From Bacteroidota bacterium (GTDB taxonomy: Bacteria > Bacteroidota > Bacteroidia > Chitinophagales > Chitinophagaceae), in assembly GCA_016868895.1 (NCBI GenBank), contig VGFK01000003.1:124001-188000 (forward strand): 64,000 nt of DNA, in the 5' to 3' direction. The first letter of the stretch is position 1, and every line of letters starts with the position of its first letter. Shown here piece after piece: positions 1-9,303 of the stretch. A program made the position numbers and the translations under genes. A model generated the notes under the pieces. That model made no database searches. It was given only the letters and a program-made list of their open reading frames with translations, and was not told the origin of the DNA.

Positions 1-2126
1 ACTATAAAAACGAGGAGCACTACGAAGATGTGAACGTAGACATCTGCGTTACACTGAAAAAAGAAGGCAAGGCGTTCAAGGTAGAAAAGTACGAACACAA
101 TTATCCGCACTGCTGGAGAACCGATAAGCCCATTTTATATTATCCGTTGGATGCCTGGTTCATCCGGACCACGGCATTGAAGGATCGTATGGTGGAACTC
201 AATACGACCATTAACTGGAAGCCCAAATCGACTGGCGAGGGCCGTTTCGGAAATTGGCTGGAGAACATGGTCGATTGGAACCTGAGTCGGAGCCGCTTCT
301 GGGGCACCCCGCTTCCCATCTGGAGATCGGAAGACGGAACCGAAGAGGTCTGTATCGGATCGTTGAACGAATTGAACGAGGGATTGAAAAAAGCGGCTGA
401 GCAGTTGGGAGGAGATACGAATGCATCGTTTCTGGTCAATGGCGTAAACGATTTGCACAAGCCCTACGTTGATGAAATGATTCTGGTTAGTCGTTCGGGT
501 AAGCCCATGCGTCGCGTTCCGGATCTGGTGGATGTGTGGTTCGACAGTGGGGCGATGCCCTATGCCCAATGGCACTATCCGTTCGAAGAACAGGCGATGA
601 TGGATGGGGGACAAGCATTCCCGGCTGATTTTATTGCTGAAGGAGTTGATCAGACCAGAGGATGGTTTTATACTCTACATGCATTGGGCGTTTTGCTTTT
701 TGATAGCGTAGCGTATAAAACAGTGGTGTCAAACGGACTGGTTTTGGATAAGACCGGCAATAAAATGAGCAAGCGGCTGGGCAATGTCGTGGATCCTTTT
801 GATACCATTGCCCGATTTGGCGCAGATGCAACCCGCTGGTACCTCATCACCAATGCATCGCCCTGGGATAATTTAAAATTTGATCTCGAAGGGATCAAAG
901 AAGTGCAGCGCAAGTTCTTTGGTACCTTGTACAATACCTATCAGTTTTTTGTCCTCTACGCCAATGTGGACGGATTCACGTACGCGGAAGCTGATTGTGC
1001 GTTTGAAAAGCGTCCAGAACTGGATCGTTGGATTCTCTCCAGTCTTCAATCGTTGATCAAAGAAGTGAATCGTCACATGGACGATTACGAGCCAACTCTG
1101 GCAGGCAGAGCCATCGATGAATTTGTGGATGAGCTGTTGAGCAACTGGTACGTGCGGTTGTCCAGACGTCGTTTTTGGAAAGGAGAATATGCCGAGGATA
1201 AAATTTCAGCCTACCAGACGCTGTATACGTGTTTGTCGACCATCATCAAACTTGCAGCTCCGCTTTCGCCATTCTTTACCGATTCACTCTTCAGAAATTT
1301 AAATGCGGTGACCGGTAAAGAGCAGGTTCAGTCGGTCCATCATGCCGAATTTTCGGTTGCCCAAGAAGCATGGATCGATCTGCTGCTAGAAGAACGCATG
1401 GCCATGGCACGCGAATATTCTTCACTGGTGTTATCCATTCGTAAGAAAGTAAATATTCGGGTGCGACAACCGCTTCAAAAAATGTTGATCCCCATTTCAA
1501 ATGCCCAGATGCACACGCAGCTGCAGCATGTCGAGGATCTGATCAAAGCGGAAGTGAACGTGAAAGAAATGGAATTTTTGCCGGCGGATAATGACTTTAT
1601 TAAAAAGCGCATCAAGCCCAATTTTGTGGTGCTGGGCAAAAAACTGGGAGCCCGCATGAAAGCTGCTGCAGCGGTCATTGCTGCCATGGGGCAGGAAGAA
1701 ATACGATCCCTGGAGCAATCCGGATCGATTCAGATCCGGGTGGAAGGAGAGAACATTTCCCTGTTGCGGGAGGAAGTGGACATCCAAAGCGAGGATGTTC
1801 AAGGCTGGATGGTTGCATCCCGGGGTGCTCATACAGTGGCCCTTGATGTAACGGTCACGCCTGTTCTGGAACAGGAGGGCAATGCCCGTGAGCTGGTCAA
1901 CCGAATTCAGAAAATACGAAAGGACATGGATCTGGAATTGACCGATCGGATTCAGGTTGAGGTGGCCTCGGATCCGGAATTGGATCAAGCGATTGAAGTA
2001 TTTAATGACTATATTTGCGCCGAAATTTTAGCTAACCAGATCCGGTCTCTACAGGATTTGGGAGTGGGAGTTGACACGGAGATAAGTGGCAAAACGCTGA
2101 AAATCAACGTAATAAAAAAAGAGTAG
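1..2126 (+). CDS. ileS: Isoleucyl-tRNA synthetase, 3' part (5' end outside window)
   Basis: Cytoplasmic class I synthetase that charges tRNA-Ile. The reading frame is open from base 3, so the GTG at 30 used by the ORF track is internal and the true start lies upstream. Visible marks are the catalytic-domain segment DVWFDSG (about residue 167 of the ORF), the KMSKR ATP-binding signature near residue 245 (NKMSKRLGN), then the helical anticodon-binding domain (SNWYVRLSRRRFW) and the C-terminal extension typical of Bacteroidota IleS. The HIGH motif and most of the editing domain are missing because of the window edge. It ends 4 nt before the DksA/TraR-like gene, so the two are probably cotranscribed. 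Confidence 0.97.
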   Translation, partial: YKNEEHYEDVNVDICVTLKKEGKAFKVEKYEHNYPHCWRTDKPILYYPLDAWFIRTTALKDRMVELNTTINWKPKSTGEGRFGNWLENMVDWNLSRSRFWGTPLPIWRSEDGTEEVCIGSLNELNEGLKKAAEQLGGDTNASFLVNGVNDLHKPYVDEMILVSRSGKPMRRVPDLVDVWFDSGAMPYAQWHYPFEEQAMMDGGQAFPADFIAEGVDQTRGWFYTLHALGVLLFDSVAYKTVVSNGLVLDKTGNKMSKRLGNVVDPFDTIARFGADATRWYLITNASPWDNLKFDLEGIKEVQRKFFGTLYNTYQFFVLYANVDGFTYAEADCAFEKRPELDRWILSSLQSLIKEVNRHMDDYEPTLAGRAIDEFVDELLSNWYVRLSRRRFWKGEYAEDKISAYQTLYTCLSTIIKLAAPLSPFFTDSLFRNLNAVTGKEQVQSVHHAEFSVAQEAWIDLLLEERMAMAREYSSLVLSIRKKVNIRVRQPLQKMLIPISNAQMHTQLQHVEDLIKAEVNVKEMEFLPADNDFIKKRIKPNFVVLGKKLGARMKAAAAVIAAMGQEEIRSLEQSGSIQIRVEGENISLLREEVDIQSEDVQGWMVASRGAHTVALDVTVTPVLEQEGNARELVNRIQKIRKDMDLELTDRIQVEVASDPELDQAIEVFNDYICAEILANQIRSLQDLGVGVDTEISGKTLKINVIKKE

Positions 2127-2130
2127 TAAC

Positions 2131-3249
2131 ATGGCAACGAAAAAACCTGCACCAAAGAAAAAAGCTGCTCCTGTCAAATCAAAGTCTTCTGTAAAAAAAT
2201 CGGTGCCTGTAAAAAAGGCGCCTGAAAAAAAAGCTGTTCCTTCCAAGAAAGCGGTACCCGCGAAAAAAGCAGCGCCTGTTAAAAAAGCAGCGATTAAGTC
2301 GGCCCCAGCTAAAAAAGCAGTTCCCGCGAAAAAAGGGGCTCCGAAGGTCGCTACCGTGAAAAAGGCAGTTCCGGCAAAAAAGCAGGCTCCTAAAGCGGCT
2401 CCGATTAAAAAGGCTGTTCCTTTAAAGAAGGAAGTCCCGGCAAAAAAACCAGCCCCAAAAGCCGCTGCACCCGCTCCCAAGTCAGCAGCCCCTGCTAAGA
2501 AAACAGCGCAGGTCCCTGTAAAATCGGCTGCAAAACCTGCGTCAAAGACCACACCGGCTGATAAATCCGTTCCTGCGCAAAAGCAGGTGCCTGCAAAAGG
2601 AGGCAAACCCAAGGCTCCGGCACCTGCTACAAAATCAGGCAAGAAAGTTCCGGTCATTTCACCCGAGACCCGGTTTGCTAAGACCAGCAAGACGGTAGCC
2701 AGCGCAGCAGAGATCCGTAAGGCCTTGCGTGCAAAAGAGTCGAAGAATGAGGTGAAGCCAATTGCCATCCCGAAAATCAGTACAAAAAGTTCCCGCAAAT
2801 ACGAACCGGAGTTCACGCGTTCGGTATTGGACAGTAAAGCAGAAGCAGCTCCTCCGGCACATTCTCAGCGGTATTCGGATGCCGATCTTGCAGAGTTTCG
2901 TGAATTGGTGCAAAACAAGCTCAGTGCTGCAAAGCAAGAGTTGACCTATCTGAATGGACTAATTACCCGCAAGGATTCCATGAGTGGTGAAGACTCCGAC
3001 AGTCGGTACATGACGATGGAGGATGGAAGCCTGAGCATGGAGCGAGAGCAGTTGAGTCAGATGGCCAGTCGACAAATCGATTTCATTGAGAAATTAGAAA
3101 AGGCCTTGATGCGCATTGAAAACAAGACCTATGGCATTTGCAGGGTTACCGGACGCCTTATTGATAAAGCGCGTTTGCGTGCTGTTCCGCATGCTACGTT
3201 GAGCATGGAGGCGAAGATGGGCATGAATCGACCTGGTTCTGGAAACTGA
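2131..3249 (+). CDS. DksA/TraR-family regulator with long histone-H1-like Lys/Ala/Pro tail
   Basis: The C-terminal ~120 residues (about 255-372) match the DksA/TraR fold: a coiled-coil segment (DLAEFRELVQNKLSAAKQEL) followed by the position of the C4 zinc finger, TYGICRVTGRLI...RLRAVPHAT. In this family the protein binds the RNA polymerase secondary channel. Only one of the expected four cysteines remains, so zinc binding is probably lost, as in other Bacteroidota members. Residues 1-185 are a low-complexity tail of repeated PAKKAVPAKK-like units, strongly basic and resembling eukaryotic H1 or chlamydial Hc1 tails. I infer, but cannot show, that the tail binds nucleic acid. ATG lies 4 nt after ileS. 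The antisense ORF 2049-2816 is only the mirror of the repeats. Confidence 0.85.
   Translation: MATKKPAPKKKAAPVKSKSSVKKSVPVKKAPEKKAVPSKKAVPAKKAAPVKKAAIKSAPAKKAVPAKKGAPKVATVKKAVPAKKQAPKAAPIKKAVPLKKEVPAKKPAPKAAAPAPKSAAPAKKTAQVPVKSAAKPASKTTPADKSVPAQKQVPAKGGKPKAPAPATKSGKKVPVISPETRFAKTSKTVASAAEIRKALRAKESKNEVKPIAIPKISTKSSRKYEPEFTRSVLDSKAEAAPPAHSQRYSDADLAEFRELVQNKLSAAKQELTYLNGLITRKDSMSGEDSDSRYMTMEDGSLSMEREQLSQMASRQIDFIEKLEKALMRIENKTYGICRVTGRLIDKARLRAVPHATLSMEAKMGMNRPGSGN
2137..2690 (+). repeat. Imperfect coding repeat encoding Lys/Ala/Pro-rich tail
   Basis: Degenerate tandem units of about 15-30 nt encode variants of VPAKKAAP and APVKKA inside the DksA/TraR-like gene. The units are related in protein sequence but vary in codons (AAA/AAG, GCA/GCG, CCT/CCC), which suggests selection on the protein pattern rather than recent DNA slippage. 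Repeat number could still vary between strains. Confidence 0.8.
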
Positions 3250-3250
3250 T

Positions 3251-5044
3251 TCATTTCATTTCCTGCATCGATACCAATCGACTGTATATTCTATTTACAG
3301 CCATGAGTTCTTCGTGCTTTCCCCGTTCTGCAATTTTTCCCTGATCCAAGACAATGATTTCGTCGGCATGCCGAACAGTAGATAAACGGTGTGCAATGAT
3401 GATGCTGGTTCTGTCCTTCATTAATTTACTGATGGCATCCTGCACCCATTTCTCGCTTTCCGTATCCAATGAAGAGGTAGCCTCATCCAGAATGAGGATG
3501 GGAGGATTTTTCAAGATGGCACGTGCGATGGTGATGCGCTGGCGTTCACCGCCGCTGAGTTTGGATCCTCGATCGCCAACCCTACTATCGTAACCTTCCT
3601 CTTTTCCGATGATGAACTCGTGTGCATTGGCAATCTTCGCTGCCGATACGATCGCCTCCCGCGAGGCAAAAGGATTTCCCAATGAGATGTTGGCAGCGAT
3701 GCTGTCATTGAACAGGATTGGTTCCTGTGTAACAATTCCCATGAGCGATCGGAGCTCTTTCATCTTGAGCAGTTTGATGTTGACTCCATCGATGCATACC
3801 TCACCGGAACTGGGATCGTGGAAACGGGGGATCAGGTCGACCAGCGTTGATTTACCCGAACCGGAGGAACCAACGATGGCAATGGTTTGTCCCTTTTTTA
3901 TGGTCAGGTCAATGGCATCCAGGATTACCCGATCGGCATATGCAAATGAAACGTTTTGGAGCTCTATACTGGAATTGAACTGTGTGATGGGTTGTGCGTT
4001 TGGGTCGTCCTGGATCGATTGTTCCTCCCGGATGAGTCGTTCAATCCGCTCAATGCTGGCCGCACCTTTACGAATGTTGTAACTCGCGGTACTAAAGGCT
4101 TTCAGGGGATTGATGATTTGGGTGAAGATCGCGATGAAGGTCAGGAAATCAGGTCCAGTCAGCGAGAAATCCTGGTTTAAAACCAGTGTGCCTCCATAAT
4201 ACAGCACACCGCTGACGGCCAATATCCCCAGGGTTTCTGAAACCGGCGAGGCGAGGTCGCGCCGACGAACCGCTTTGTTTTTGGTATGAAAGAGATCGCT
4301 GTTTTCTGCATTGAATTTTTCCAATTGTTGCGATTCCGCATTGAATGCCTTCACTACGCGGATGCCCCCGAGCGTTTCTTCAATGGTGCTGAGGATTTCA
4401 CCCAGCTTGACTTGAACGTCGTTGGAGACTTTTTTAAGTGAGCGACCAATACGGCCGATGATCAAACCCGAAACGGGAAGGAAGATCAACAGAAAGAGAG
4501 AGAGTTCGGGACTCAGATTGATCAGTGCGATGAGATAAATCGTGATGAGTACAGGTTCACGGAAAAAACTTTCCAGAAAACTCATCGTTGAAAACTCGAC
4601 GTCCTGCAAGTCGTTGGTCAATCGACTCATGATATCACCCTTGCGTTGGTCGTTGAAAAAACCAACGGGCAGCTGCAGAATCTTCTGAAACATATCGCTG
4701 CGCATATCGTTGATAATCGAGTGCCGGATGGGCGTGAGCAGAAAAAGTGCGCTGTAGAGAAATAAGTTTTTAAGCAGAATCGCCCCAACTACTATTGCAC
4801 AAATGATTCCCAGTGCTTCAATTTTTCCTTCCGGAGAGTGCATCAGTGCGGAGAGCCGATCAAACATTGGTAACCCGGCCATCCCTTTGTTTTCATTGCC
4901 TCCAAATATCAGGCTGAGGAAGGGGGCGAGCATGGCCAATGAGACCAGTGAAAACAGAGCAGAAAGCAGATTCATCAGCAGGTAGCCCGCAACCAGCTGA
5001 GGATAGCGCTTGATGTACTGGAAAATGACACGGAGGCTTTTCAT
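3251..5044 (-). CDS. MsbA-type ABC exporter (fused permease and ATPase)
   Basis: A 597-residue half-transporter: six-helix exporter domain over residues 1-330 and nucleotide-binding domain after about 355. Walker A is GSSGSGKST near residue 391, the signature is LSGGERQR, and Walker B is ILILDEATSSLD followed by the H-loop IIAHRLSTV. Length and order match the MsbA / lipid A or multidrug exporter family, which works as an inner-membrane homodimer. The substrate cannot be read from sequence. MsbA-like lipid A flipping is plausible because this is a Gram-negative with lpxH in the window. It is convergent with the DksA-like gene (1 nt gap) and divergent from rbfA (46 nt). Confidence 0.9.
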   Translation of the reverse strand: MKSLRVIFQYIKRYPQLVAGYLLMNLLSALFSLVSLAMLAPFLSLIFGGNENKGMAGLPMFDRLSALMHSPEGKIEALGIICAIVVGAILLKNLFLYSALFLLTPIRHSIINDMRSDMFQKILQLPVGFFNDQRKGDIMSRLTNDLQDVEFSTMSFLESFFREPVLITIYLIALINLSPELSLFLLIFLPVSGLIIGRIGRSLKKVSNDVQVKLGEILSTIEETLGGIRVVKAFNAESQQLEKFNAENSDLFHTKNKAVRRRDLASPVSETLGILAVSGVLYYGGTLVLNQDFSLTGPDFLTFIAIFTQIINPLKAFSTASYNIRKGAASIERIERLIREEQSIQDDPNAQPITQFNSSIELQNVSFAYADRVILDAIDLTIKKGQTIAIVGSSGSGKSTLVDLIPRFHDPSSGEVCIDGVNIKLLKMKELRSLMGIVTQEPILFNDSIAANISLGNPFASREAIVSAAKIANAHEFIIGKEEGYDSRVGDRGSKLSGGERQRITIARAILKNPPILILDEATSSLDTESEKWVQDAISKLMKDRTSIIIAHRLSTVRHADEIIVLDQGKIAERGKHEELMAVNRIYSRLVSMQEMK

Positions 5045-5090
5045 TTCGTGTGCACAAAGTAACTAATTTTACAGCTATCAGGGGGTTGAT

Positions 5091-5453
5091 ATGCAGGAAG
5101 GAAAACGACAGAAACAAGTTGCAGGAGTGATCCAAGAGGAGATGAACGGTATTTTTCTCCGGTTGGGACTGAACATGATGGATGGGGGCATGGTCTCCAT
5201 CTCTGCTGTGAAGGTGACTCCCGATTTACTGGAAGCCCGAATTTATCTCAGCCTTTTTCAGGTAACAGACCCTGAACTTACACTCAAGCGATTTGAAGAC
5301 CGCAAAGGGGAGATCAAGCGCGAGCTGGGTCTGAGGGTCAAACAACAGCTCAGAAGAATGCCAGAATTGAAATTTTTTCGTGACGATACCCTTGACCATG
5401 TCTTTCGCATGGAAGAGCTGTTCAAAAAGATCAATGAAGATCGAGACAAATGA
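5091..5453 (+). CDS. rbfA: Ribosome-binding factor A
   Basis: A 120-residue single KH-like domain protein that assists late 30S maturation at the 16S rRNA 5' helix. It starts MQEGKRQKQVAGVIQEEM and shows the family segment ISAVKVTPDLLEARIYLSLF and the C-terminal LKFFRDDTLDHVFRMEELF. Length is normal. Its TGA stop overlaps the next ATG (ATGA at 5450-5453), so translation is probably coupled to the LolC/E-type permease. Confidence 0.95.
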   Translation: MQEGKRQKQVAGVIQEEMNGIFLRLGLNMMDGGMVSISAVKVTPDLLEARIYLSLFQVTDPELTLKRFEDRKGEIKRELGLRVKQQLRRMPELKFFRDDTLDHVFRMEELFKKINEDRDK

Positions 5454-6685
5454 ATTCTTCCCACATCCTGAAATTTTCCTGGAGGTATTTCAGGGCGAAA
5501 AAGTCCACCAACGCCATCAACATCATCAGTTGGGTCAGTATGCTGGCCATGTTTTTTGGAACAGCTTCCTTGTTGGTCGTGTTGAGTGCCTTCAATGGAT
5601 TTGAAACATTGGTGCAATCACTCTACGGGTCATTCTACCCCGATATCAAAGTCAGTGCTTCACAAGGGAAAACCATTCAGATCCGTGCCGAACAGCTGCA
5701 GGCTATGCGGTCTATTTCCGGTATAGCAACGATCTCCCTGGTTGCGGAAGAAAAGGCGCTGCTTCAGAATGCTGATATGCAAACCATTGTCACCATCAAA
5801 GGGGTAGATACCGCATATGCGCAGGTCAATAACGTACCGGCTTTTCTATACAGAGGTACGTTTGAACTGGGAACGCCGGAGCAACCGGGACTGGTGATGG
5901 GCGTAGGAATTGAGCAGGCATTGGGATTGCTCTCGGATAGAACCATCTTTCCGGTTTCCGTTTACTTTCCCAAGAAAGGGGTACCTGACCTGAGCGATCC
6001 CAATGGTTCGCTTGCAGTGGGAAATGCACAGCCAACAGGAAGTTTTGCCATACAAAGTGAGTTTGACAATAAATATGTGCTCACGAATCTGGACTTTTTA
6101 CGGACCTATGCAGGGTATGGATCGAATGAGTATACGGCCCTGGAACTCAAGCTGTATCCCCATGCAGATCTGGCTTCCATTACTACTTTATTAAAAGAAC
6201 AGTTGGGAAGCGCTTACACAGTGGAGGATCGTTTCCAGCAGAACAGAACTTTATACACCACCATGCAATTGGAGAAGCTCGCCGTTTATGCCATCCTTAC
6301 GTTAATTCTGGCAGTGGCCGCGTTCAATATGGTCGGAGCCTTGAGCATGTTGGTGATGGAAAAGCGAAGAGACATTCAGGTATTGAAAGCAATGGGTGCA
6401 ACGGATCAAATGATCCAGAAGATATTTTTATCCCAGGGATTGCTGCTGTCATTGTTGGGTGCCGGGTGTGGGGTCCTGATCAGTCTATTGCTTTATTATC
6501 TGCAGGTTACGTATAAGATAGTACCGTTGCAGGGGACGACTTTCCTGATTGATTATTATCCCATTCAATTGCGTTGGATGGACTTTATGTGGGTGGCAGC
6601 GATTGTCGTTGTGATTGCTGTATTGGCGTCTTGGATACCTGCTCGAAGTGCTGCGGCATCAATTATTGATCTGAGGAATCAATAG
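5450..6685 (+). CDS. LolC/LolE-type ABC transporter permease (FtsX domain)
   Basis: A 411-residue inner-membrane permease. One N-terminal helix (ISWVSMLAMFFGTASLLVVL) is followed by a large periplasmic MacB-like domain and three C-terminal helices typical of FtsX-family permeases, with the conserved coupling region MEKRRDIQVLKAMGATDQMI. The family extracts lipoproteins from the inner membrane (LolCDE) or does related mechanotransmission work. No LolD-type ATPase is adjacent, so its partner must be encoded elsewhere. It starts inside the rbfA stop codon and ends overlapping the convergent transketolase gene by 7 nt. Confidence 0.88.
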   Translation: MNSSHILKFSWRYFRAKKSTNAINIISWVSMLAMFFGTASLLVVLSAFNGFETLVQSLYGSFYPDIKVSASQGKTIQIRAEQLQAMRSISGIATISLVAEEKALLQNADMQTIVTIKGVDTAYAQVNNVPAFLYRGTFELGTPEQPGLVMGVGIEQALGLLSDRTIFPVSVYFPKKGVPDLSDPNGSLAVGNAQPTGSFAIQSEFDNKYVLTNLDFLRTYAGYGSNEYTALELKLYPHADLASITTLLKEQLGSAYTVEDRFQQNRTLYTTMQLEKLAVYAILTLILAVAAFNMVGALSMLVMEKRRDIQVLKAMGATDQMIQKIFLSQGLLLSLLGAGCGVLISLLLYYLQVTYKIVPLQGTTFLIDYYPIQLRWMDFMWVAAIVVVIAVLASWIPARSAAASIIDLRNQ

Positions 6686-7512
6686 TCGCCAATGGTCTCC
6701 GGCAACTGTGCCAGTGCTTTACTCAATTGCTCGTCGTTTGGAGCGATGCCGTGCCAGCCGTGATCATTCTCCATGAAATCAACACCTTTTCCCATCAGGG
6801 TTTTCATGATGATGGCGATAGGCTTGCCTTTTCCGGTTGCTTGTTTGGCCAGTTCCAATACACGCAAAACATCATCCATGTCGTTTCCATTCATTTCGAG
6901 GGTGCTCCATCCAAAGGCCTCAAATTTCTCCCGTAGATTTCCAAGCGAGATCACCTTGTCGGTCGGACCATCGATTTGCTGTCCGTTCCAGTCGATGGTA
7001 GCAATGAGGTTATCGACTTTATGATGGGCGCCAAACAGAACGGCCTCCCAGATTTGACCTTCTTGCAGCTCGCCGTCGCCATGCAGCGAATACACCAAAT
7101 GGGAGTCATTGTTCAATTTTTTGGCCAGTGCCGCTCCCAGCGCTACACTCAGTCCCTGACCCAGCGAGCCCGATGCCATGCGAACCCCCTGAAGGTGTTC
7201 GTGCGTGGTGGGATGACCTTGAAGGCGAGAATTCAATTTGCGGAAGGTGGACAGTTCCTGAACCGGAAAATACCCCGATCGGGCCAGGCACGAATAGAAT
7301 ACGGGAGATATGTGACCGTTGGAAAGAAAGAAAAGGTCCTCTCCAATTCCATCCATCTGGAAGGCCGGATCATGCTTAATCACCTTGAAATACAGGGCCG
7401 TGAGGAAGTCTGTGCACCCCAGCGATCCTCCCGGATGACCACTCTGCACGGCATGCACCATTCTGACGATATCTCTTCTGATTTGCGTGGCGGTTTCTTG
7501 GAGGGAAGGCAT
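6679..7512 (-). CDS. Transketolase, N-terminal (TPP-binding) subunit
   Basis: A 277-residue N-terminal half of transketolase, from a split-gene form common in Bacteroidota. It carries the pyrophosphate-domain marks SGHPGGSLG, the thiamine diphosphate motif GDGELQEGQIWEA and IATIDWNGQQIDG. The enzyme transfers two-carbon units in the pentose phosphate pathway. I place the start at ATG 7512 (MPSLQETATQ) and not at the track's 7551, because a TAnnTTTG promoter box covers 7529-7536. The C-terminal subunit needed for activity is not adjacent on either side and is not in the window. Confidence 0.92.
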   Translation of the reverse strand: MPSLQETATQIRRDIVRMVHAVQSGHPGGSLGCTDFLTALYFKVIKHDPAFQMDGIGEDLFFLSNGHISPVFYSCLARSGYFPVQELSTFRKLNSRLQGHPTTHEHLQGVRMASGSLGQGLSVALGAALAKKLNNDSHLVYSLHGDGELQEGQIWEAVLFGAHHKVDNLIATIDWNGQQIDGPTDKVISLGNLREKFEAFGWSTLEMNGNDMDDVLRVLELAKQATGKGKPIAIIMKTLMGKGVDFMENDHGWHGIAPNDEQLSKALAQLPETIGDY

Positions 7513-7645
7513 GATTACTTGGTTTTGGCAAAAATAATTTTTTTCTCCCAATAGGGTACTTTGGTGGTAAAATAAGTGAAATGGATTTGCTCATTAATGT
7601 TGAAATTTGCCTTTATGCATACGTATACTATTGCTGAATAACTAA
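7513..7645. other. Divergent intergenic region, AT-rich
   Basis: 133 nt between the transketolase start and the broken sugar-phosphate transferase. The half next to transketolase contains its promoter box. The half next to the transferase contains small palindromes (TATGCATA, GTATAC) but no ORF and no clear TAnnTTTG box on the plus strand. Base composition changes visibly to AT-rich here. Confidence 0.5.
7529..7536 (-). promoter_or_regulatory. Bacteroidota -7 box before transketolase
   Basis: On the minus strand this reads TATTTTTG, an exact match to TAnnTTTG, 16 nt before ATG 7512. It rules out the longer ORF-track start. Confidence 0.6.
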
Positions 7646-8678
7646 ATGGGAAATCTTTTTTTTGTACCCTTGATTTCTTTTTTGATAACATTCTTAAGTA
7701 TTCCTATTGTTATTGCATTTTCAAATAAGTTTCAACTTTTTGATATACCTGTAGGAAGAAAACTTCATGCTACCCCTATCCCAACATTAGGGGGGATTTC
7801 AATTTTTGTGTCCGTTTTTTGACTATAATTTTTTCTAATTCTGTTTTTTGGCATCCGGGGATCCTGATAATCTTTTCTTGCGCAATAATTATTTTTTTAA
7901 TAGGGCTCCTTGATGATATTAAGGGGTTATCACCTTTGACTAAATTTTTAATTGAGTTCATTGTTATTTACATTATTGTAGAGTATGGGGGGATGCGAAT
8001 AGAATCGCTTCATGGGCTCTTTGGAATATTTGAAATAGCAGAAAATATACAAATTCTTATTACTTTGTTATTTATTTTGGCCTTAATTAATGCATTTAAT
8101 TTAATAGATGGAATAGATGGATTAGCTGCGACCCTTGGTACATGGGGTGCACTATTTTTTGGTTTTATTTTTTCGTATTGCGGTGAAATTTCATATGCTA
8201 TTATGGCATTTAGTCTAGGTGGGAGCCTTATTGGCTTTCTATCTTTCAATTCGTCTCCTGCTAAAATTTTATGGGGGATTCAGGGTCTTTGTTTATAGGT
8301 ATTGTGAATTCAATTTTTGCGATTCGCTTTATTAATTTCCAAAACCCTTTATTATTGAATTTAAATATTATTGAAACCTCGATAGTAGCGGTATCAATTT
8401 TTTATATTCCTCTTTTTGATGCAGTGAGAGTGTTTGTATTGAGAGCTCTTAAGGGAAGATCACCCTTTAGTGCGGATACAAATCATATCCATCATATTTT
8501 TTTAAGAAAGGGGCATTCTCACTACAGAATTTCATTGATTTTGTTGTTGATAAGTTTCTTAATTACATTTTTTGTCTGGCTTCTTCAACCAACGGGAATA
8601 AACCTCATAACAGCGGTTCTTGTATTATTCGGATTTTTTCTATCTATGTGTTTATCAAGCATGGATAAGAAGCTCTAA
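7646..8678 (+). pseudogene. WecA/MraY-family glycosyl-1-phosphate transferase, two frameshifts
   Basis: Three successive frames encode one membrane transferase of the family that moves a sugar-1-phosphate onto undecaprenyl phosphate. Segment 1 (7646-7820) has FDIPVGRKLHATPIPTLGG. Segment 2 (7819-8298) has GLLDDIKGLSPLTKF and NAFNLIDGIDGLAATLG. Segment 3 (8271-8678) has MGDSGSLFIG and SADTNHIHHIFLRKGHSH, the usual catalytic Asp/His positions. Frame changes fall in TTTTTT at 7815-7820 and in the TTTT run just before ATGGGGGATTC near 8268. Restoring one T at each gives an uninterrupted 344-residue protein of normal length. The gene is far more AT-rich than its neighbours, suggesting transfer. 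It may be a real pseudogene or a good gene with two sequencing errors. Confidence 0.8.
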
Positions 8679-8739
8679 TTGCAAAATGATCATCCATTTC
8701 CCCCTCTTTCCTTAAATTCGCAGACCAAATGTTCTGATT

Positions 8740-9303
8740 ATGTCTGAAGAATTGCAGCACGGTATTCAAACGGCTTCGGGATCCATGGAGAAAGCGATTG
8801 CGCACCTCGAGGCAGAACTGGTCAAGATCAGGGCGGGCCGGGCCAACCCGCAAATGTTTGACGGGTTGACAGTCGACTACTACGGTTCACCTACTCCCAT
8901 CAATCAAGTGGGAAATATATCCGTCGCGGATGCACGGACCCTCACCATCCAGCCTTGGGAAAAGAATATGCTGCAACCCATTGAGCGGTCCATCATCGCC
9001 GCCAACATGGGCGTGACTCCTCAAAACGACGGAACCATCATTCGGATCTTCCTTCCACCGCTGACGGAAGAGCGTAGAAAAGAGATTGTCAAGCGGCTAC
9101 AGGCAGAAGGCGAGCATTCCAAAGTAGCCATCCGAAACATTCGCAGGGATGCCATCGAGCAAGTAAAAAAGTTACAGAAGAATGGATTGAGCGAAGATGC
9201 TGCTCAGGACGGTGAAAAAGACATTCAGGAGCTTACCAACAAATACATTGCCCTGGTGGAGAAACACCTGGCTGCTAAAGAAAAAGAGATCATGAGCGTC
9301 TGA
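8740..9303 (+). CDS. frr: Ribosome recycling factor
   Basis: A 187-residue protein of exactly the usual length that splits post-termination ribosomes together with EF-G. Recognisable segments are HLEAELVKIRAGRANPQMFDGL, the domain II hinge VDYYGSPTPINQVGNISV, and the C-terminal helix with RRDAIEQVKKLQKNGLSEDA. It starts at ATG 8740, about 20 nt after TAAATTCG, a near match to the -7 consensus. It abuts the convergent EamA gene with no gap. Confidence 0.97.
   Translation: MSEELQHGIQTASGSMEKAIAHLEAELVKIRAGRANPQMFDGLTVDYYGSPTPINQVGNISVADARTLTIQPWEKNMLQPIERSIIAANMGVTPQNDGTIIRIFLPPLTEERRKEIVKRLQAEGEHSKVAIRNIRRDAIEQVKKLQKNGLSEDAAQDGEKDIQELTNKYIALVEKHLAAKEKEIMSV

Follow-up and report, generated by a model that had tools for sequence, protein, structure and literature searches.

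A gene in the window (the whole 64,000-nucleotide stretch of DNA analysed) encodes a protein in which a long, basic Lys/Ala/Pro tail precedes a complete DksA-like fold. We consider it fairly probable that this protein is a zinc-free DksA-type factor, tethered by its basic tail to nucleic acid near the polymerase. Three observations lead to the tether: the charge of the tail, its predicted disorder and the precedent of the Pseudomonas protein AlgP. The features on which the analysis is built are collected in Table 1.

Table 1. Coordinates of the features discussed, numbered from the first letter of the window.
Feature	Position	Strand	Basis
ileS (isoleucyl-tRNA synthetase)	30..2126	+	ORF list; 5' part may extend beyond window
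Tailed DksA/TraR-family protein, 372 aa	2131..3249	+	ORF list, translation, Pfam match, genome profile search
N-terminal Lys/Ala/Pro tail, residues 1-173, predicted disordered	2131..2649	+	Repeat comparison, composition, AlphaFold
A8, longest A-run of the tail, in frame in the window gene	2225..2232	+	Sequence, A-run count
Linker, residues 174-246 (about 73 residues)	2650..2868	+	Alignment of homologues
Conserved linker motif YEPEFTRSVLD, residues 224-234	2800..2832	+	Alignment of homologues
DksA-like core, residues 247-362	2869..3216	+	Pfam, AlphaFold fold match, alignment to E. coli DksA
C337, sole cysteine, aligned with C114 of E. coli DksA	3139..3141	+	Translation, alignment

Membership of the DksA/TraR family is indicated by the Pfam profile zf-dskA_traR (PF01258), which the protein matches at 30.1 bits (cut-off 24.9). 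For residues 171-372, AlphaFold predicts a structure that includes helical blocks at pLDDT >90; a PDB search with this model gave five hits at E<0.001, every one a DksA entry. A sequence-only reading of this DNA had assigned a DksA/TraR-type C-terminus. The family assignment stands, but the predicted core, about 125 residues long, is the whole DksA fold, a coiled coil plus a C-terminal globular module, and not merely its end. By TM-score normalised to target length it resembles DksA2 of Pseudomonas aeruginosa (PDB 4ijj, 0.75) and E. coli DksA (1tjl and 5vsw, 0.70-0.71); the fold of Chlamydia Dks (6ptg) is also alike. Unlike the window protein, these chains of 129-151 residues carry no long basic N-terminal tail. 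Since the NCBIfam equivalog cut-offs are missed (TIGR02420, 43.9 vs 115.5 bits; NF033459, 39.8 vs 105 bits), we call the core DksA-like and not DksA proper.

The same reading had counted one of the four zinc cysteines, which is correct: in the alignment to E. coli DksA, T340, S358 and A361 occupy the other three positions and the zinc site is incomplete. We do not count the missing cysteines among the peculiarities of the protein, because the single-cysteine form is also common to tail-less Bacteroidia orthologues, and DksA2 of P. aeruginosa works without zinc and is able to replace DksA1 (PMC9213440). Other E. coli features are incompletely conserved. A conserved sequence, MEDGS, is found where the acidic DxxDxA tip would be expected; E297 and D298 are invariant in 36 sequences, with the register of the tip uncertain in the alignment. 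Two ppGpp-contact residues of E. coli DksA have counterparts, K98 in K321 and K139 in K362, position 321 being His in many relatives. Dependence on ppGpp is doubtful because the equivalent of R129 is V352.

The open reading frame has an ATG start and begins 4 nt after ileS. The two genes are probably co-transcribed; of 168 homologous loci, 146 have ileS as the upstream neighbour, in most cases no more than about 25 nt away. A minus-strand ABC transporter gene converges on the frame and ends at 3251, a single base from its end, and no plus-strand terminator-like site was found at this 3249-3251 junction. Between 1900 and 3500 there were no promoter-like sites; terminator-like sites numbered four (2.5 expected), each of them on the minus strand. 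An Rfam search of positions 1-9000 of the window gave no match. An antisense open frame at 2049-2816 mirrors the tail and was set aside as a gene. The protein is the sole DksA/TraR profile match in the 1.75 Mb genome, which also encodes one RelA/SpoT protein, and we count both facts in favour of a DksA-type factor. The genome has two HU proteins, with open frames of just 100 and 111 codons.

The Lys/Ala/Pro repeat tail reported by the sequence-only reading is real: in the first 177 residues the K+A+P fraction is 0.70 and the net charge +48. It is N-terminal and somewhat shorter than the 185 residues given to it: at about residue 173 the charged repeats give way to the linker. The repeat units are about 60-80% alike in DNA, with codons that differ between units. 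AlphaFold assigns the tail a pLDDT of about 44-53 and zero secondary structure. The tail has a Lys/Ala/Pro-rich, predicted disordered region as in histone H1-like proteins; the Hc2 profile (PF07382) found no match at E<=1 in the genome of the window. Chitinophagaceae share the YEPEFTRSVLD motif of the linker, although some groups have variants of it; its Y224 and P226 are invariant in 36 sequences. Elsewhere in this genome, a pattern search found one other KKAxPxKK site, a 41-aa peptide beginning MATAKKAKKAAPKKK and located downstream of rplU-rpmA (G000:C4:124480-124605, L202).

Judged by sequence comparison, the composition of the tail is under selection, as had been argued from the differing codons of the repeats. 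We conclude this because the K+A+P fraction is independent of local GC (rho -0.001 over 137 tails), third positions follow GC (tail GC3 tracks core GC3 with rho 0.84 in the same tails, whose sequences are related so that p-values are not independent), and dN is well below dS. The K:R ratio in these tails is about 46:1. Among close pairs where it could be computed, tail dN/dS is 0.07-0.37, mostly 0.07-0.27, values to be read with the caveat that synonymous sites are often saturated and that low-complexity alignment depresses dN. The core is the most constrained part, at 0.01-0.04 in close pairs. The gap-free pair L039/L114 has a tail value of 0.12 and a core value of 0.02. A set of 135 in-frame tails contains fewer A8 windows than synonymous shuffles of the same tails (0.31 vs 1.05).

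Of 149 genomes of the order, 145 have the core, as do 247 of 248 of the phylum. In loci extracted with an HMM applied on all six frames, the tail was found on all intact Chitinophagaceae loci examined save L019/L161 (G020, same genus), in which it is shortened to a K-rich remnant with the linker motif kept. Within the order, several further families have it; it was also seen in some Bacteroidia beyond the order and in genomes outside the class, and is missing from Pedobacter and other sampled families. The expectation that relatives carry similar tails is thereby borne out, and among close relatives the tail is shared and its dN/dS low. Tail presence requires at least 11 changes on a tree of 104 cores, which is itself poorly resolved. 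We regard the tail as old and widespread in the phylum. Some single loci deserve mention. The start of the short tail at L161 (2756-3030) has no in-frame ATG. At locus L068 the apparent loss of the tail reflects masked sequence. The Chitinophagaceae-like records L100 and L102 have tails broken across several frames, a possible cause being sequencing errors in runs of A.

In some distant relatives the basic tail and the core appear to be joined by programmed poly-A slippage, while in the window gene the frame is continuous. The clearest layout is that of a family outside Bacteroidia, coded f43 (23 genomes, L212-L234); an assignment to green sulfur bacteria was rejected, FmoA being absent from the four genomes tested. 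An A10 tract (A11 in L212) stands at the start of the core open frame in all 23. A Lys/Ala/Pro frame runs through the tract in +1 relative to the core in 21 of them, the exceptions being L220, at a contig edge, and L225, outside the list of the ORF search. This basic frame stops 0-9 nt past the tract, and GAGGT or GGGGT shortly precedes its ATG in the 19 loci for which the start could be read. From tract to core the core frame stays open in 23/23 genomes; among the 22 loci away from an edge, 17 have it opening just 12-33 nt ahead of the tract. In these tails AAG is the usual lysine codon, and synonymous shuffling seldom produces an A10 (<=0.0082 per gene for 21 genes; 0.05 and 0.30 for the two truncated at an edge). 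The same two-frame layout is seen in two genomes of f41, with an A9 tract, and in one genome of f72, with an A10 tract and a sister that is in frame (loci L249, L251 and L254).

The argument that the tract-to-core stretch may be translated in f43 is based on the open frame in 23/23 genomes and on the tract, not on dN/dS or indels. In ten close pairs its pN/pS in the core frame is 0.98 (L215/L216), 0.83, 0.63, 0.27, 0.40, 0.36, 0.46, 0.33, 0.75 and 0.63, the two highest being close to neutral with few changes; the core gives 0.04-0.17 in the same pairs. Gap codons number 0 in five pairs and 1, 1, 12, 4 and 4 in the others, in a comparison of translated sequences that makes gaps whole codons by construction and is silent on indels in threes. 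Constraint on this stretch is weak and mixed, and it is not counted as support for translation. The tail in its own frame has a pN/pS of 0.00-0.30 in eight pairs; the other two, in which most of the tail is unaligned (64 and 54 gap codons), give 0.62-0.65. Between tract and core, one alignment column reads GTG in 18, ATG in 4 and GCG in 1 of the 23 genomes. With GTG or ATG in 22/23, against a GTG share of 34% among valine codons of the cores, this column suggests a conserved internal start; a weakness of this candidate is its short spacing from the GGAA that precedes it. Such a putative start, giving a tail-less product, would be the main alternative, or an addition, to slippage. A comparable case is dnaX (PMC3711429), a different gene, whose two frames are connected through a poly-A tract, as appears to happen in these distant relatives; the main text of that GeneTack survey mentions neither DksA nor TraR.

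The closest precedents for the tail come from Pseudomonas. AlgP and PhaF, which are KPAA-repeat, histone H1-like proteins, have a disordered Lys/Ala/Pro region of similar length and charge, and the KPAA domain of AlgP binds DNA and determines the location of the protein (PMC9239181). Their basic region is C-terminal on unrelated helical domains, whereas that of the window protein is N-terminal on a DksA fold, and no homology is claimed. In the reading that we prefer, the zinc-free core would enter the secondary channel of RNA polymerase like DksA, as its modelled fold suggests. By analogy with AlgP, the disordered Lys-rich tail would bind nonspecifically to polyanions such as DNA or RNA, and it would hold the factor at high local concentration near the polymerase, either on the nucleoid or on nascent transcripts. 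The separate basic frame kept beside the f43 core is counted for this reading; counted against it are the missed NCBIfam cut-offs, V352 at the position of R129, the tail-less orthologues of many lineages and the shortened tail of G020.

The closest rival to the tether is RNA condensation as in Bacteroides Rho. The tail could chiefly drive RNA condensates, or organise polyphosphate or other granules, instead of tethering the factor to polymerase; we think this unlikely, though it is the rival we take most seriously. Rho of Bacteroides thetaiotaomicron, a transcription factor of the same phylum, has a charged disordered region acting with RNA and makes RNA-dependent condensates via such motifs (PMC13269538), the KPAA-domain protein AlgP is associated with polyphosphate granules (PMC9239181), and the composition and predicted disorder of our tail fit both. 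Rho is, however, a different protein with a K/E-rich region, and it is for Rho that condensation has been shown. Moreover, the tail sits on the fold of a polymerase factor, which fits local tethering at least equally well.

A functionless low-complexity expansion maintained by replication slippage would explain the repeats, the strong length variation between species, and a tail that is short in G020 and missing in many lineages. It is already disfavoured and quite improbable in our estimate, as the composition is constant across GC contents, tail dN/dS is well below 1, all intact family members but one have the tail, and in-frame tails avoid long A-runs. Less probable still is a chiefly histone-like nucleoid protein whose DksA fold no longer acts on polymerase. 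The incompletely matched ppGpp-contact and tip residues would agree with such a protein, as would the basic frame that in one family could be made alone, but a core that is under the strongest constraint and near-universal in the phylum, often tail-less, argues against it.

DksA of Bacteroidota appears to be little studied. A search of open-access literature on DksA in Chitinophaga and Bacteroidetes and on programmed frameshifting found no paper on the tail; subscription journals are mostly outside this search, so it is weak evidence of novelty. We put at about even the chance that, in much of Bacteroidota, a single regulated module combines a DksA-type factor with a basic peptide of histone-like type. 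The two would be fused in frame in some lineages, as in the window gene, and linked by two-frame slippage at A9-A11 in others, with a free basic peptide, a tailed DksA and possibly, from the conserved internal start, a tail-less DksA made from one gene. If these readings are correct, the selected histone-like tail would connect the global control of transcription in a simple way to the binding of RNA or the nucleoid, and the slippage layout would add a central regulator to the known cases of programmed frame change.
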